Assembly (NCBI RefSeq): GCF_030167925.1
Contig: NZ_JASKUT010000001.1
Coordinates: 806,001 to 870,000 of the forward strand
Length of the DNA stretch: 64,000 nt
Source: Paenibacillus silviterrae
GTDB taxonomy: Bacteria > Bacillota > Bacilli > Paenibacillales > NBRC-103111
Direction of reading: 5' to 3'
Position 1 is the stretch's first letter; the number at the start of each line of letters is the position of its first letter. Below, one piece after another: positions 2,782 through 8,783 of this stretch. The translations under genes were made by a program, and so were the position numbers. The notes under the pieces were generated by a model. The model was not told the origin of the DNA and searched no databases. It was given only the letters and a program-made list of their open reading frames with translations.

Positions 2782-2845
2782 ATTATCGGTCACGGAAGCA
2801 TACCCCGCCATGCATGAATACTTGTACCTCGTCCCACATACGTAA

Positions 2846-2854
2846 TGTTATAAT
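2846..2854 (+). promoter_or_regulatory. Extended -10 promoter for the GH26-like gene
   Basis: TGT followed directly by TATAAT forms an extended -10 element, 37 bases before the chosen start. No good -35 lies 16-18 bases upstream, which an extended -10 can tolerate. It sits in the short gap after sbcC, so the next gene probably has its own transcript. Confidence 0.5.
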
Positions 2855-2891
2855 GAGGTCAGTGCCTACATACAAGGGGGATTCAGCAATC

Positions 2892-5018
2892 ATGAAGCTA
2901 AAGGGACGATTCACCCGCAAGCTATACGCAGCTGTGATATGCTGCAGTTTGCTGCTGACTGCGGCTTCACCGGCCCCGGCTCGCGCCGACGCGATCTGGG
3001 ACCGCTGGGTAGCTGCCGAAGCAGCTGTAAAACAGGGCAATCCTGCTGCCGCCGTACCGCACTGGGAGTTTCTTGTAAAGCATTATGAACAGCTGGGAGA
3101 TTATCAGGGAGCAGCCTTGTTCAGCGGGAGCTTGAACGAGTATTACGACAGCATCAAGGAGTATGACAAAGCCATCGAATATTACGAGCTGGAAAATAAA
3201 TTTTGGCTCCTCCATGGCAAGGATTGGGGAGCGGTGGACCTCATTCGTGCGGAGCAAATCCGTACGACGATCGATCTATATATGTCGACGGATGAGGAGG
3301 AGGAGCTGAAACGCCAGGCCGCACCGAAGAAAGGCAAGCTGGCGAAGTTCGAGCCGGAATACGGTACGTATATCGGCTTATATTCGGAGCAGGATCCGAA
3401 AATGCTGAACTTTTTTACCCGGTCCGAGCAATTTTACGATAAAAAGCATGCGCTCTACCTAACCTATGGCCCGGTAAGTAAAGACTTTCCGACCCAATTC
3501 GCTAACCGCGCGAAGGAAGCCGGTGCGGCTATTCAGATCGCATGGGAGCCGTCGCAGGGCTTGGATGCGGTGACGGAGGACGTAGTTCGCTCCTTCGCCA
3601 AGGGAGCCAAGGCCTCCGAAATCCCGATCTTCCTGCGTTATGCCAGCGAAATGAACGGCAACTGGGTTCCATGGCACGGCGATCCGCAAAAATATATCGA
3701 GAAATTCAGGATGGTACACCGCATTATGGCGGAGGAAGCGCCGAATGTTGCCATGGTGTGGAGTCCGGGCGACGTTCCTATGTATTCGATGGACGCCTAT
3801 TATCCTGGGGATGACGTTGTGGATTGGGTCGGCGTAAGCTTGTATTCCGAGCCGTATGAGAACGGCGACCCCGGGCAAGGAAACATGCAGGCGACCTCGC
3901 CCGTAGAGCGTCTGGACTATTTGTACAAAACGTACGCGGACCGCAAGCCGCTGATGATTAGCGAAACGGCCGTTTCCCATTACGCGCATATCCCGCAGGA
4001 ATCGTTCACGGAGTACGGGACATTGAACCTGCAGCGTTTATATGACATCATGCCGAAGAAATACCCGCGTTTGAAGTCCATTACCTATTTCAACGTGAAT
4101 TTGGCGGACCGGGAATCGAGGAACAACTATCTGCTTCGCGATAACGAACAGATGTACGAGCTTTACCGCAAGCTGATTTCCAGCCCTTATTATCTTACGA
4201 AGGTGGAGAACAACGCCAAGCCCGCCGATAGAATCGGACATGTCAAAGTAACGGACGGATCGGCGTTCGCGAAGCAGACGAAGCTAACACCTTTTGTGAA
4301 GATTCCCGATATTTACATCGGCAAGCTGGAGTATTACTTAAACGGAAAGCTTCTGGAGACACAGACCAAGCCTCCATATGGTATTGATCTGAAGGCGGGC
4401 TCCGTGCCTGACAACTCCCAAATTGAACTGGCAGTCTATAACCATGACGGTAGGAAGGTAGCCTCAAAGTCGTTTACGCTATCATCGGAGGTATCCGTTG
4501 CAATAGACAACAAGCTGCAGAGCTATGAGCAGCCGCCTGTCATTCGCGAGGGCAGCACGCTGGCTCCGCTTCGCGCCATTTTCGAGGCTATGGGCGCCGT
4601 CGTCGAGTGGGATCCTACAACGAAGACAGCCACGGCCAAGAAGGGCGATACTACGGTTACGATCCAAATCGGTAACCCTATTGCCGAGAAGAACGGACAG
4701 AAGATAACACTGGATATGGCCGCTCAACTGGTGAACGGCTATACGATGGCCCCGGCCCGATTCGTCGCAGAGGCGTTCGGCGGCAAGGTAGGCTGGGACG
4801 CAACCACCCGAACGGTTCAAATTACGACCAACGGAAACACTGCAGCACTCCCGCACTCCTCTACGCAGCAAACAACCACGCAGCCTTCCGAACCTGCAGA
4901 TGAACAAAAACCCGATTCCACACAGGAATCGGGTTGGCGTTCTAAGCTTCAAACGATCGCATCAGCCGCTTCAGGACTGTTCCATCGCGTCAAAACATGG
5001 CTTACAGCTAAGCTATAA
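2892..5018 (+). CDS. Secreted GH26-like glycoside hydrolase with stalk domain
   Basis: Predicted exported protein of 708 residues, start ATG 2892 with AAGGGGG at 2874-2880. An in-frame ATG at 2814 would precede the ribosome site and the promoter. Order: signal peptide (~1-33, ending ARADA), a TPR-like helical stretch (~35-130), then a TIM-barrel domain (~155-435). The barrel resembles family 26 glycosidases (beta-mannanase/lichenase type): SEMNGNW puts the acid/base Glu at ~253 and ISETA puts the nucleophile Glu at ~358. After an Ig-like segment comes a copper-amine-oxidase N-terminal type stalk domain (~535-650; APLRAIFEAMG, APARFVAEAFGG), common in exported Paenibacillus proteins and probably wall-facing. 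The tail is Thr/Gln-rich with a short amphipathic end. The substrate cannot be told from sequence. Its last 40 codons carry the terminator of the convergent gene. Confidence 0.8.
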   Translation: MKLKGRFTRKLYAAVICCSLLLTAASPAPARADAIWDRWVAAEAAVKQGNPAAAVPHWEFLVKHYEQLGDYQGAALFSGSLNEYYDSIKEYDKAIEYYELENKFWLLHGKDWGAVDLIRAEQIRTTIDLYMSTDEEEELKRQAAPKKGKLAKFEPEYGTYIGLYSEQDPKMLNFFTRSEQFYDKKHALYLTYGPVSKDFPTQFANRAKEAGAAIQIAWEPSQGLDAVTEDVVRSFAKGAKASEIPIFLRYASEMNGNWVPWHGDPQKYIEKFRMVHRIMAEEAPNVAMVWSPGDVPMYSMDAYYPGDDVVDWVGVSLYSEPYENGDPGQGNMQATSPVERLDYLYKTYADRKPLMISETAVSHYAHIPQESFTEYGTLNLQRLYDIMPKKYPRLKSITYFNVNLADRESRNNYLLRDNEQMYELYRKLISSPYYLTKVENNAKPADRIGHVKVTDGSAFAKQTKLTPFVKIPDIYIGKLEYYLNGKLLETQTKPPYGIDLKAGSVPDNSQIELAVYNHDGRKVASKSFTLSSEVSVAIDNKLQSYEQPPVIREGSTLAPLRAIFEAMGAVVEWDPTTKTATAKKGDTTVTIQIGNPIAEKNGQKITLDMAAQLVNGYTMAPARFVAEAFGGKVGWDATTRTVQITTNGNTAALPHSSTQQTTTQPSEPADEQKPDSTQESGWRSKLQTIASAASGLFHRVKTWLTAKL
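4905..4935 (-). terminator. Terminator of the minus-strand TetR/oxidoreductase gene, inside a coding region
   Basis: A perfect 11-bp inverted repeat (arms 4909-4919 and 4925-4935, loop ACACA) is followed, read on the minus strand, by five T (the A run 4906-4910). On the plus strand no T run follows. It therefore fits an intrinsic terminator for the minus-strand gene ending at 5036, placed within the plus-strand gene that ends at 5018. Confidence 0.75.
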
Positions 5019-5035
5019 TCCCTTACCATACGGTA

Positions 5036-6955
5036 TTATGCCTTTACAAGCTCCTTAGCTTCTTCGAGAATCGCCTTCGCAACGTGACGAGCGGTAGAAA
5101 ATGCCCGTTCTGCGAGCTCGCCCTTGCCCTGGCAGCCGTCTCCGCAGAAGTAGAACGGCACATTCTCCAGACGCGTCGGCAGCAGCTGGTTGCTGCTGAT
5201 ATTTTTAACACTGGCGACCATGGCCTTTTTGGATACCCGTTTTACTTCAACCGCCTCGCGCCAGCCCGGATAATACTGATCGAACAGAGCTTCCATCTGA
5301 GCTGTCTTGGCGTCCAGGTAAGCTTTGCGCTCCGCTTCATCGGCAAAGTTATCGCTTAAATAAGCGATGCCCTGCAGCAGCTGGCCGCCGGCCGGCACAA
5401 GAGTATGATCCGTAGCCGATACGTCGCTGATGAACAGCTTGTTGTTCATATCGCTGATATAGCTGAAAGGGCGGGCAACGACGGTTCGCAGGCCGATATC
5501 GTACACCATCACCTCGGTAGCCGTATTATCCTCGTACGGAGCAAGGAACGGCTCCCATGGAGTGCCTTTGGTCAGCTTGCACACCTGCTGCACCGGCATA
5601 GCAAAGATCACCTTATCAAAAGCGGATTCACCGTTCTTCGTCTGCAGCACGAATTTGCGGTCGGCGTAACGGATGCCTTCGACGCCTTGCTGCAAGGCAA
5701 TATCCCATCGTCCGGACATGTCGATCTTTTGTTTTAGCTGGTTCGTAATGACAGCCCAGCTGCCGAGCACGTAATTGACGGGGCGGCTAGACAGGAACAG
5801 GTTATGATAGTACTCGCTGATGACGGAACCGGGAACCTTGCGGGCTTCCTCCGGCGTAATGAAAAAATTGGAGCAAACCAGATGCTCCCACAGCTCCTTT
5901 ACGTCCTCTCCGGCATCCGAGTCGGCTAAGTAATCGCCTAGCGTATTGAAGTTTTTGAGTGTATGGATATTCGCCATAATGGCGGTAATTTCACCGACAA
6001 AACGCATCTTCTGCATCGGGCTGAGCAGCTCGGTCCGCATCAGATTGACAAAATCAAGCGGCGCCGGCGTCAGCTCATCGTTTTTGGCATACATAACCTT
6101 TCGCTTATCTACCTGCTTGGAGCTGAAGGAAAGACCAAGCTCGCGCTCCATAGCGGAGATTTCATGGCGATCAATTCCGTATATCGCATGGGCACCATAG
6201 TTCAGTGTAAATCCGGCTTTCTCGTACGTAAAAGCGCGGCCGCCGAGCTGCGGGCTTCTTTCGAACAGAACGCCCTCTACTCCCGGGTGTTCCGATAAAT
6301 AGGCTGCAGCCGTCAGGCCGGCTAAGCCTCCTCCAATAATCGCAATTTTCATGCTTCTTGCTCCTTTCATTTCCGGCTCCGGCAGCACAGGCTCCTCAAC
6401 ATGGCTTGTGCGAAGGCCCGACCAAGCCCAAGCCAGCTGCTTGCGCAGCATTTCATTTAGATCCCCGCCTTCACGCGAACACCAGATCATGATGGTACCC
6501 AAATACGCCGTGACCAGCACCCGTGCCTTCCCCGGCTCCGGCAGCCAGCGCAGCAAGCTTTCATATAGATACCGATTCTGTTCATCCACCGCGGCGCGCA
6601 GGCCTTCGTTCTGCATGGACAGTGCAATTAAGCTCCGCATGAGCTTGGGGGAAGCGCCGATGGGGGCAACAAGCTCCAGCATAAGGCGGTTGACGTGAGC
6701 CTCCAGTGACGGTACCTGGGATGGCGTTCGGCTTGACCAGGCTTTGATGATTGCGATTTGCCGCCGCGGAATTTCCCTCAGTATTTCATCCTTGCCCTGA
6801 AAATAGTGATAAAACGTACCTTTGGACGTATTCGTTGCCGCGATGATATCGTCTACGGAAACCTGCTCATACCCGCGCTCCACGAACAGGCGAAGCGCAA
6901 CCTCCATCATGAATTCACGCTTCTTCTGGGTGGACTCCCGCATATAACGGTTCAT
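5036..6955 (-). CDS. TetR-family regulator fused in frame to FAD-dependent amine oxidase-type oxidoreductase
   Basis: One open frame of 639 codons joins two proteins that are normally separate. Residues ~15-65 form a TetR helix-turn-helix (VDDIIAATNTSKGTFYHYF), then a TetR-like ligand domain to ~195. From residue 202 a second domain begins with the dinucleotide fold GGGLAG followed by ERSPQLGGRA, typical of flavin amine oxidase/phytoene desaturase/protoporphyrinogen oxidase-like enzymes; ~438 residues remain, a full-length enzyme. The start ATG 6955 lies 10 bases from AGGGGG; TTG 6964 is too close to it. A strong internal Shine-Dalgarno site precedes the second domain (see 6350-6366), so the enzyme may also be made alone. 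Substrate unknown. Convergent with the GH26-like gene. Confidence 0.8.
   Translation of the reverse strand: MNRYMRESTQKKREFMMEVALRLFVERGYEQVSVDDIIAATNTSKGTFYHYFQGKDEILREIPRRQIAIIKAWSSRTPSQVPSLEAHVNRLMLELVAPIGASPKLMRSLIALSMQNEGLRAAVDEQNRYLYESLLRWLPEPGKARVLVTAYLGTIMIWCSREGGDLNEMLRKQLAWAWSGLRTSHVEEPVLPEPEMKGARSMKIAIIGGGLAGLTAAAYLSEHPGVEGVLFERSPQLGGRAFTYEKAGFTLNYGAHAIYGIDRHEISAMERELGLSFSSKQVDKRKVMYAKNDELTPAPLDFVNLMRTELLSPMQKMRFVGEITAIMANIHTLKNFNTLGDYLADSDAGEDVKELWEHLVCSNFFITPEEARKVPGSVISEYYHNLFLSSRPVNYVLGSWAVITNQLKQKIDMSGRWDIALQQGVEGIRYADRKFVLQTKNGESAFDKVIFAMPVQQVCKLTKGTPWEPFLAPYEDNTATEVMVYDIGLRTVVARPFSYISDMNNKLFISDVSATDHTLVPAGGQLLQGIAYLSDNFADEAERKAYLDAKTAQMEALFDQYYPGWREAVEVKRVSKKAMVASVKNISSNQLLPTRLENVPFYFCGDGCQGKGELAERAFSTARHVAKAILEEAKELVKA
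6350..6366 (-). promoter_or_regulatory. Internal ribosome site and ATG for the oxidoreductase half
   Basis: Read on the minus strand, AAAGGAG precedes an ATG (6352-6350) by 8 bases, exactly where the FAD domain begins (MKIAIIGGG). It would give a 438-residue protein from 6352 to 5036. No stop codon separates it from the upstream TetR frame, so both a fused product and a free enzyme are possible. Confidence 0.7.
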
Positions 6956-7322
6956 TCCGATCAAGCCCCCTGATCCAAACCGAATGATCTATTCCAATAC
7001 AAGCTTTCATAAGTAAAACTTTGAATTAGCATTATTATAACTGATATTAGACTTGCGGTCTATAAATTCCTCGGACTTATTGGTTAGGCATTAGACCATT
7101 TTCAAAAGAGACGAATGTTCCTTAGAAGAGTAAGGGAGTTTGTTCGGTAATTTAGGTATAAAGCAACTTAATGTAAGGAAAGTTAACAAACAATTCTGAA
7201 GAAAGGTGAATAACAGTTCGAAAATCGTTGATTAATGTCAGTTTTTAATTTATATTTGGGTTATAAGTCTTGTGAATGTCAGGTTATATTACATTAAAAT
7301 TTGAGTAAGGGGGCCTTTGGTC
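6956..7322. other. AT-rich divergent intergenic region (367 bp)
   Basis: Separates the minus-strand TetR fusion from the plus-strand chemotaxis-type gene. It holds the predicted TetR promoter and operator (7034-7062). I found no convincing -35/-10 pair for the plus-strand gene, no open frame of note and no RNA motif. Base composition is much lower in GC than the flanking genes. Confidence 0.6.
7034..7062 (-). promoter_or_regulatory. Promoter with overlapping inverted repeat, upstream of the TetR fusion
   Basis: On the minus strand TAGACC (7062-7057), a 17-base spacer and TATAAT (7039-7034) form a SigA-type promoter. The inverted repeat TAGAC-N5-GTCTA at 7048-7062 covers the -35 and part of the spacer, a position expected for autorepression by the TetR domain. 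The promoter is read from sequence; the operator role is inference. Confidence 0.5.
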
Positions 7323-8783
7323 ATGATTCGTTTGTTTTCTTCAAATTCAGCCGTACGCTTAGAGGAGACCCTTACACTAATGGCGGAGGGGGATTTCACC
7401 AAGGAGCAGACGATTCACGGAAGCGGCCGGAATCGAATGTTCCGGGCACTGGTCAGGAGCTTTCGAAGCTTAAGAGGCATGCTGAGGATCGTTGATGGAA
7501 GCTCGCGTAAGCTTCATCGCCGGATGGAGGAGATGAAGGCAAGTTCACAGCAGATTCAGGAGCAGGTCGGAAACGTGACGGACATTATCCGTGATATGAG
7601 CGAAGGGCTGCAGGAGGCGGCTGTTCACGTGCAGGACACCGCTGAGGAGCTTTCTCGTATTTCAAGGCATTTGGAAGAGCTTCGCGGGACAAGCCATGCT
7701 GTCGCTGCTTCCTCCGGCAAGCTGACTGAGGACGTGGCTTCGGGTAAGCAGGAAATGACAGGGGCAGTGGAGCGGATGCTTCGCATTTCCTCGGATACGG
7801 AGGAGGTAGCTCAAAGGATGAGCAGCCTGGATCAAACCTTGATCCTGATATCGGAGATGACAAAGCTCATAGCCGATATTGCCGATCAAACCAAGCTGCT
7901 GGCACTTAACGCCAACATTGAGGCAGCAAGAGCGGGAGAACAGGGGAAAGGCTTTGCCGTAGTGGCTGGCGAAATCTCCAAGCTTGCGGTACGGACTAAT
8001 GAGGTTACTCTTCACATTGAGGAGCAGCTGGAGCAGGTAAGTACACAAGGCCAGCATTTGAACGGGAGCATAGCTCACATGAAAGTATCTGCACAGTCGG
8101 GCAGAAGCTCCATGGAAACGGCTTTGGAGAGGTACGAGGCAATGGACGCGTTCCTGCGCGGCATCGCCCGGGATATGAACCAAATGAATGAACGGGTCGC
8201 TGACATCGCCGGCAGCTCTTTGGCGATTACCTCGAGCGTCAATGAAACATCCGCGATGATTCAGCAGGCTTCGGCGGGAAGCCAGGAGGTGCTCGCGTCT
8301 GCGGAACTGCAGCTGAATAATCTAGGACAGATGAACCTGTCGATCCAGGAGGCCACGCATAACAGCTTGACCCTCCGGTCTGTCGTATCGCAGTTCCGGC
8401 TGCCCTCCCGCGAGGAGCTGCATCCGCTGCAGAAGGAGCTGGATCGCTGGCTGGATTGCGCGCTGGGCATCCGGGCGGTAATGGTGTCTATGATTTACTC
8501 GACCGATCCGTCGCTCATTGGGGCTTGGCACGAACGCAAGCTGATCGAGGAAAAGAAGCTTCAGGTGCGTTTCGCCGAATTGGAGCAATCGCTCCAGACG
8601 TCCCGGGACCGCAGGTATTACACGGAGCTGCACACGGCGTGGCTTCATTTTGGCTTGATTAAGGATCAAAATGCCAAATGGATGCTGGCGGGAGACAATG
8701 AGCGTGCAAAGGAAGCGTTAGCGACGCAGGGCCGGGAAAGATTCAAACGGGTGGTAGAGGTGGTAAACGATTGGATGGAGTGA
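7323..8783 (+). CDS. Soluble methyl-accepting chemotaxis-type signalling protein
   Basis: 486 residues, ATG 7323 preceded by AAGGGGG at 7307-7313; a TTG at 7317 is less well placed. No signal peptide or membrane segment, so it should be cytoplasmic. Residues ~60-355 form a long methyl-accepting hairpin; the strictly conserved tip that contacts CheA/CheW is present ([19 protein letters not shown], ~192-210). A short HAMP-like stretch precedes it (~14-55). The last ~115 residues (370-486) form a predicted helical bundle rich in charged and aromatic residues; it recalls a four-helix sensor but sits after, not before, the signalling domain. No che genes are nearby. The ligand is unknown. Confidence 0.85.

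Follow-up and report, generated by a model that had tools for sequence, protein, structure and literature searches.

A TetR regulator fused in frame to a flavoenzyme in Paenibacillus and its relatives: a predicted autorepressed gene with a conserved internal start for the enzyme

Introduction

Repressors and the enzymes under their control are normally encoded by separate genes, and among flavoenzymes this arrangement is exemplified by EthR/EthA, in which the gene of a TetR repressor lies beside that of the enzyme. In trifunctional PutA, an N-terminal DNA-binding domain is carried on a flavoenzyme such that a single polypeptide acts as both enzyme and autogenous repressor, switching with proline and with the redox state of its flavin (PMC5293562). 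Further combinations of regulator and enzyme are described for BzdR, in which a DNA-binding domain has been recruited to an enzyme-type (shikimate kinase) domain (PMC3602430), and for FmdE, a metabolic enzyme subunit found fused to a regulator in three Methanosaeta assemblies by a genome survey (PMC11237513). Separately, pairs of N-terminal proteoforms arising from in-frame internal starts are reported in a Salmonella census (PMC11005335) and in work on VirF30 and VirF21 of Shigella, where the shorter form derives from an internal in-frame start and, in the case of VirF21, also from an internal promoter (PMC5101355).

The locus described here lies within a stretch of 64,000 nucleotides from Paenibacillus silviterrae (hereafter, the window) and encodes a TetR regulator and a flavoenzyme in one open frame, with a conserved internal start at the beginning of the enzyme. 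The resemblance to PutA lies in the placement of an N-terminal DNA-binding domain on a flavoenzyme; the parts differ, given that PutA joins a ribbon-helix-helix domain to PRODH/P5CDH while the present protein joins TetR to a fold of the phytoene desaturase/protoporphyrinogen oxidase type, and the passages on PutA considered here note no counterpart of the conserved internal start (PMC5293562). Membership of the PutA family was rejected, since Pfam returns TetR_N and Amino_oxidase rather than RHH and PRODH/P5CDH. PutA nonetheless appears to be the nearest published mechanism found, alike in logic and unrelated in parts. Pairs of the EthR/EthA type also place a TetR regulator next to an FAD enzyme, and the TetR half of the fusion resembles EthR, FadR and KstR in fold; moreover, divergent TetR-enzyme pairs exist within this enzyme family, a separate TetR gene being divergent from the enzyme gene at L168 (G500), L169 (G490) and L170 (G520). 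Unlike such pairs, the present locus encodes repressor and enzyme as a single polypeptide, and the same mRNA could be the source of the fusion and of the enzyme alone.

With the Salmonella and VirF proteoform pairs the locus would share the production of two proteins from one gene, the shorter from an internal start; it differs in that the short form here corresponds to the whole second domain of a protein joining regulator and enzyme, with a start site kept over many genera (PMC11005335; PMC5101355). In BzdR the enzyme-like domain became part of the regulator (PMC3602430), whereas the present fusion has an entire TetR body and an enzyme that retains its flavin motif. The FmdE fusion involves another enzyme, is archaeal and is limited to three assemblies, and neither a TetR domain nor an internal start is mentioned in the passage of that survey describing it (PMC11237513). 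Among the literature matches listed, whose coverage leaves most subscription papers outside, no TetR-flavoenzyme fusion was found. As a candidate trigger enzyme, one that would act in both metabolism and gene control, the protein has both domains and a predicted operator, all present and conserved. Together these comparisons suggest an enzyme-repressor of a known kind to which a conserved nested enzyme is added as a new element.

Organization of the Fusion Gene

The initial annotation had proposed that a TetR regulator and a flavin enzyme are read as one protein, and both this claim and its placement proved right: a single open frame of 639 codons runs along the minus strand (Table 1). Within the encoded protein, Pfam matches TetR_N (PF00440) at residues 18-62 (3.1e-16), the flavin-containing amine oxidoreductase family (Amino_oxidase) at 211-630 and an NAD(P)-binding Rossmann domain (NAD_binding_8) at 206-269, with no stop codon in the window frame between the TetR_N match and the enzyme domain matches (206-630). 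An AlphaFold2 model of the whole fusion (pLDDT 86.6, pTM 0.65) places nine TetR helices at residues 7-181 and an enzyme fold from residue 202 onward, separated by a linker in which pLDDT falls below 50 at residues 190-198. The TetR half modelled alone reaches a pLDDT of 93.2 and shows the attributes expected of the family, namely an all-helical body of about nine helices and a C-terminal ligand/dimer domain.

Table 1. Features of the fusion gene and its promoter region, in window coordinates.
Feature	Position	Strand	Remarks
TetR-flavoenzyme fusion, full-length ORF	5036..6955	-	639 aa/codons; calculated 71.9 kDa
TetR regulator domain, residues 1-181	6413..6955	-	helix-turn-helix ~18-62; nine helices
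Linker, residues 182-201	6353..6412	-	variable in sequence and length; uninterrupted in fusions examined
FAD enzyme, residues 202-639	5036..6352	-	calculated 48.8 kDa
Internal Shine-Dalgarno AAAGGAG	6361..6367	-	N8 to ATG
Internal start codon ATG (Met202), predicted free-enzyme start	6350..6352	-	Met here in 73/76 distinct fusions
Predicted autoregulatory operator TAGACCGCAAGTCTA (motif TAGACYNNNRGTCTA)	7048..7062	-	palindrome TAGAC-N5-GTCTA
Predicted -10 box TATAAT	7034..7039	-	operator occupies would-be -35 position

The convergent neighbour of the fusion gene (window 2814-5018, plus strand) matches glycosyl hydrolase family 26 and a copper amine oxidase N-terminal domain, and similar genes adjoin the fusion at L034, L035, L036 and L047. 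The divergent neighbour (window 7317-8783, plus strand) contains a methyl-accepting chemotaxis signalling domain (PF00015), and at none of the other loci in the comparison was a similar gene placed in its group.

Identity of the Two Halves

Structure and family comparisons drew on alignments of 57 (A1), 54 (A2) and 26 (A3) rows of the sequences gathered. The enzyme is an unnamed branch of the phytoene desaturase/protoporphyrinogen oxidase/amine oxidase superfamily, to which its N-terminal dinucleotide-binding motif and its match to the superfamily profile assign it, and the GGGLAGL flavin motif is invariant in the 57 aligned fusions. Its nearest solved folds, separated by small margins, are an archaeal oxidoreductase, phytoene desaturase and protoporphyrinogen oxidase (PPO), and among its fold neighbours desaturases and PPO stand alongside amine and amino acid oxidases. 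When the enzyme half was compared with NCBIfam, it scored below the curated cut-off in all 12 families matched, including PRK07233 (78.7 of 252), HpnE (75.2 of 283), proto_IX_ox (56.3 of 97.9) and crtI_fam (33.2 of 238). Assignment to a named member of the superfamily (HpnE, PPO, CrtI or PRK07233) was rejected on this basis, and for the same reason the designation of the enzyme as an amine oxidase in the initial annotation is too specific, this name being merely that of the Pfam umbrella.

All 54 TetR halves aligned match PF00440, and the profile and fold matches of the TetR half include the FadR, EthR and KstR types. Because neighbouring rows among the fold matches lie less than 1 Z apart, an acyl-CoA or other hydrophobic ligand for the TetR half is a lead only. 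A role in defence was also considered and rejected, as PADLOC gave just two weak matches, over the Rossmann region.

Conservation and Evolution of the Fusion

Within the genus, the full-length fusion is present without a stop in 23 of 25 genomes, and in the family an intact fusion occurs in 85 of 104; in the rest of the family the halves lie in different frames (G016), the enzyme alone is present (G102 and G027), a fragment remains (G093), or no match is found at 1e-60 (15 of the 104 genomes). Across the order, sampled at one genome per species, 139 of 392 genomes matched, comprising 100 full fusions, for which Paenibacillus and Cohnella are the named carriers, 37 enzymes alone, G016 and G093; since the 392 include all 104 family genomes, 100/392 is not an order-wide frequency. 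A sparse sample of the phylum yielded one match at 1e-60 among 299 genomes, that of P. silviterrae itself, and at the level of the class 20 stretches were examined of the 108 genomes matched besides its own. The initial annotation had named a stop between the two genes in all relatives as grounds for abandoning the fusion; relatives instead keep it, and among the order genomes with adjacent halves the frames differ only in G016.

At the locus concerned (L071 of G016), the TetR and enzyme frames overlap, the TetR frame continuing past the enzyme start, and both TAGACTTTCGGTCTA upstream and an SD ahead of the enzyme are retained. A genus member without the fusion, G017, encodes a distant enzyme of 26% identity (L032) with a TetR-type frame (3.7e-11) directly downstream, and G070 carries, in addition to a full fusion, a second, stand-alone copy of the enzyme (L068, C20:352383-353696) that is 75% identical to the query.

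For the sequence comparisons that follow, 89 full-fusion loci were reduced to 76 distinct sequences, or 77 with the addition of L177. The 27 distinct stand-alone enzymes exclude G016 (L031, L033, L071), G017 (L032), L058, a stand-alone enzyme that appears in two frames, and L072, which is the fragment of G093; an enzyme counted as having no TetR neighbour when a profile built from the fusion TetRs matched nothing in the flanks fetched. A neighbouring gene, which we take to be of the YqeY type, is common to 13 of 27 loci compared (nine fusion loci and the enzyme-only loci L049, L050, L057 and L058), the other 14 being located elsewhere or adjoining other genes. These distributions indicate that the fusion gene is old and mostly inherited, and no accident of assembly.

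In a tree of the enzyme (66 rows; midpoint-rooted, with long-branch warnings in its deep parts), the fusions of the Paenibacillales (clade A) and those of G106, G114 and G409 (clade B) form deep clades split at 100/99. The B fusions adjoin stand-alone enzymes (97/90), and enzymes lacking TetR nest at several places within A, as does L067 beside L060. In G429, which belongs to the same family as G409, an enzyme is present with no TetR detected nearby. In the less clear tree of the TetR half (28 rows), lineage B groups with the divergent TetRs at 92/89, at a place where long branches meet and outgroups are unsure. Clade B, comprising L112 (G106), L113 (G114) and L177 (G409), is a second, probably separate fusion lineage, and these data are most simply explained by two origins of the fusion and repeated loss of its TetR half; the alternative history, of one very old fusion followed by many losses, may also account for them.

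The pattern of substitution suggests that the frame has been kept open across relatives. By parsimony over 74 distinct fusions (rows chosen as intact ORFs, with L112 and L113 left out), linker residues 183-201 have undergone approximately 604 nonsynonymous changes but none to a stop codon; had stops been as acceptable as replacements of one residue by another, some 35 would be expected. Linker length varies from 16 to 31 codons, and all ten of the length changes are multiples of three. The ratio of nonsynonymous to synonymous changes (N/S), read with synonymous sites saturated and related rows not independent, is 1.36 in the C-terminal part of TetR, 0.48 in the helix-turn-helix and 0.39 in the enzyme.

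The Internal Start

The Shine-Dalgarno sequence and ATG that the initial annotation had placed at the start of the enzyme do lie exactly there, and the comparison across relatives reveals that they are conserved. In all 73 of the 76 distinct fusions with an aligned internal Met, the anti-SD energy is at or below -9 kcal/mol, a value attained at only 7 of 1013 other internal Mets of the same 76 genes. Mean SD energy is -11.7 at the aligned Met, as compared with -7.7 for synonymous recodings and -2.7 at the other internal Mets. When each of the 59 unique SD windows is tested singly against synonymous recodings, 4 pass at 0.05 and 36 at 0.2, and the case for the internal start therefore rests on the set as a whole; the combined p of 9e-9 is itself too small because the rows are related.

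Further indication comes from the codons themselves. The two SD codons encode the residue pairs KE, KG, QE, RE, EE, ME, RG and GG, and whichever residue precedes, the second codon is GAG in 49 of 49 cases and GGA or GGG in 24 of 24, against a general use of 47% and 39%, respectively, in these genes. Fixation of a G-rich second codon amid such varied residues argues that the SD is conserved as nucleotides. The SD is also more open than random control positions in these genes (unpaired 0.64 vs 0.44), which lends no support to a hairpin masking the internal start, and in 51 of 73 main-lineage fusions it exceeds in strength the best start site identified for TetR.

A Met stands at the same place in every one of the 27 distinct orthologues without TetR, with SD energies of -10.3 to -13.4. 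In lineage B, L112, L113 and L177 possess their own SD-ATG 13 codons ahead of the flavin motif (-12.2, -10.3 and -12.3), close to the corresponding sites of stand-alone relatives, among them L166, L175 and L176. A strong internal SD-ATG is thus present in 76 of 77 distinct fusions, and the only one lacking it is L114 (G107), from which it follows that the internal start is inessential to the fusion. L114 is a main-lineage fusion that sits on a long branch and has the operator.

The Predicted Operator

Upstream of the fusion gene lies a palindrome that is an exact instance of the motif and its sole match in the window at one mismatch or fewer. Such a match is expected 0.17 times in the window and occurs in 16 of 100 shuffles, so the window by itself proves little for the operator. 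Among relatives, 71 of the 76 distinct fusions have an exact TAGAC-N5-GTCTA in the 160 bases ahead of the gene, and 73 have it with at most one mismatch, while a looser pattern gave 72; mononucleotide shuffles yield it in 0.013% of cases. L112, L113 and L115 lack the operator, their best candidates having three or four mismatches. L112, L113 and L177 have GACY..RGTC-like elements just past the -10 box that are unlike the main-lineage operator.

No exact operator was found within 400 bases of any of the 27 TetR-less orthologues or 19 class-level relatives; L106, which is among the former, carries a version of the palindrome with one mismatch, 257 nt upstream. The operator thus appears to come and go with the TetR half. 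Across the 25 genus genomes, the strict pattern gave 20 sites in 18 genomes, 19 of which lie at the promoter of the fusion, and the same pattern read backwards as a control gave eight; among the exact sites in these genomes, no regulon beyond the fusion's own gene was seen. The looser TAGACNNNNNGTCTA has three sites in the P. silviterrae genome, as compared with four for its control: one is that of the fusion promoter, and the other two fall within an open frame of 731 aa and within an open frame of L135. The simplest reading of these patterns would be autoregulation, without a wider regulon among the exact sites.

Proposed Mechanism and Alternatives

Taken together, the open frame, the operator and the internal start point to what is quite probably a gene that represses itself and yields two proteins, the repressor-enzyme fusion and the enzyme in free form. 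Ribosomes starting at 6955 would make the TetR-flavoenzyme fusion, while others entering at the internal SD and ATG (6350-6352) of the same mRNA would make the free flavoenzyme. The TetR half, as a dimer, would bind TAGACYNNNRGTCTA where the -35 element of the fusion promoter is expected, and would keep the gene off until a small, probably hydrophobic ligand tied to the enzyme reaction released it, whereupon fused and free enzyme would rise together. We infer translation from both starts, DNA binding, repression and dimerisation; that the ligand is the substrate or product of the enzyme is a guess. The distance between operator and -10 box, 24 in the window, is frequently the same in relatives, and the operator is sometimes present twice; in others the distance is about 47 nt, which agrees less well with simple occlusion. 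Of the readings offered by the initial annotation, an enzyme-repressor or a fusion accompanied by free enzyme, sequence comparison supports both at once, given that the frame is kept open, the operator tracks the TetR half and the internal start is conserved as nucleotides; the redox or metabolite sensing proposed along with the first reading is conjectural, and the name given to the enzyme did not stand. A more specific version, possible if on balance doubtful, is a one-gene flux sensor in which the enzyme would make or remove the ligand (or set the flavin state) governing how firmly the repressor holds the one promoter it acts on, the internal start would fix the ratio of free enzyme to repressor-enzyme, and the whole, internal start included, would have evolved twice in Bacilli.

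Control of DNA binding could instead reside in the redox state of the tethered flavin rather than in a ligand of the TetR pocket, as the precedent of PutA and the invariant flavin motif might lead one to expect. Such a switch seems unlikely, however: the variable, low-confidence linker offers no obvious coupling between the halves, the TetR half retains a full C-terminal domain of the ligand-binding type, and even in PutA affinity for DNA falls only 2-fold on flavin reduction (PMC5293562). A different objection to the two-product reading is that the fusion might be the sole product, the internal SD-ATG being an unused relic of an ancestral two-gene operon. The existence in G107 of a fusion without an internal start is in keeping with this idea, but a relic would decay, and retention of the SD in 73 of 76 distinct fusions through fixed G-rich codons, while the residues just upstream change freely, speaks against it, as does the recurrence of an internal SD-ATG in the second lineage; we regard it as very improbable.

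The converse proposal, that only the free enzyme matters and TetR is an N-terminal addition acquired by accident or in decay, is scarcely credible when constraint on the helix-turn-helix comes close to that on the enzyme and conservation of the operator is confined to genes with a TetR half, even though the TetR half has seemingly been lost several times, leaving the enzyme, and its C-terminal part evolves faster than the enzyme. As for a missed stop or frameshift in assembly or sequencing, the likelihood is close to nil: conservation in 100 genomes, one per species, already refutes an artefact, nothing in the window points to one, and what G016 shows is the opposite, an apparent break in the frame.

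Significance

What distinguishes the locus is a single frame kept across much of a family, together with a second ribosome site from which the enzyme would be made by itself. The fusion gene bears on how the ratio of two nested proteins is set, and it may serve as a simple natural test system for learning if sensing changes when an enzyme is tethered to the repressor of its own gene. Annotation that records one protein at the fusion gene may miss the other. For the Bacilli, the gene offers a way into the ligand and substrate of an unnamed flavoenzyme family, and the conserved operator would be an immediate handle on finding the ligand.
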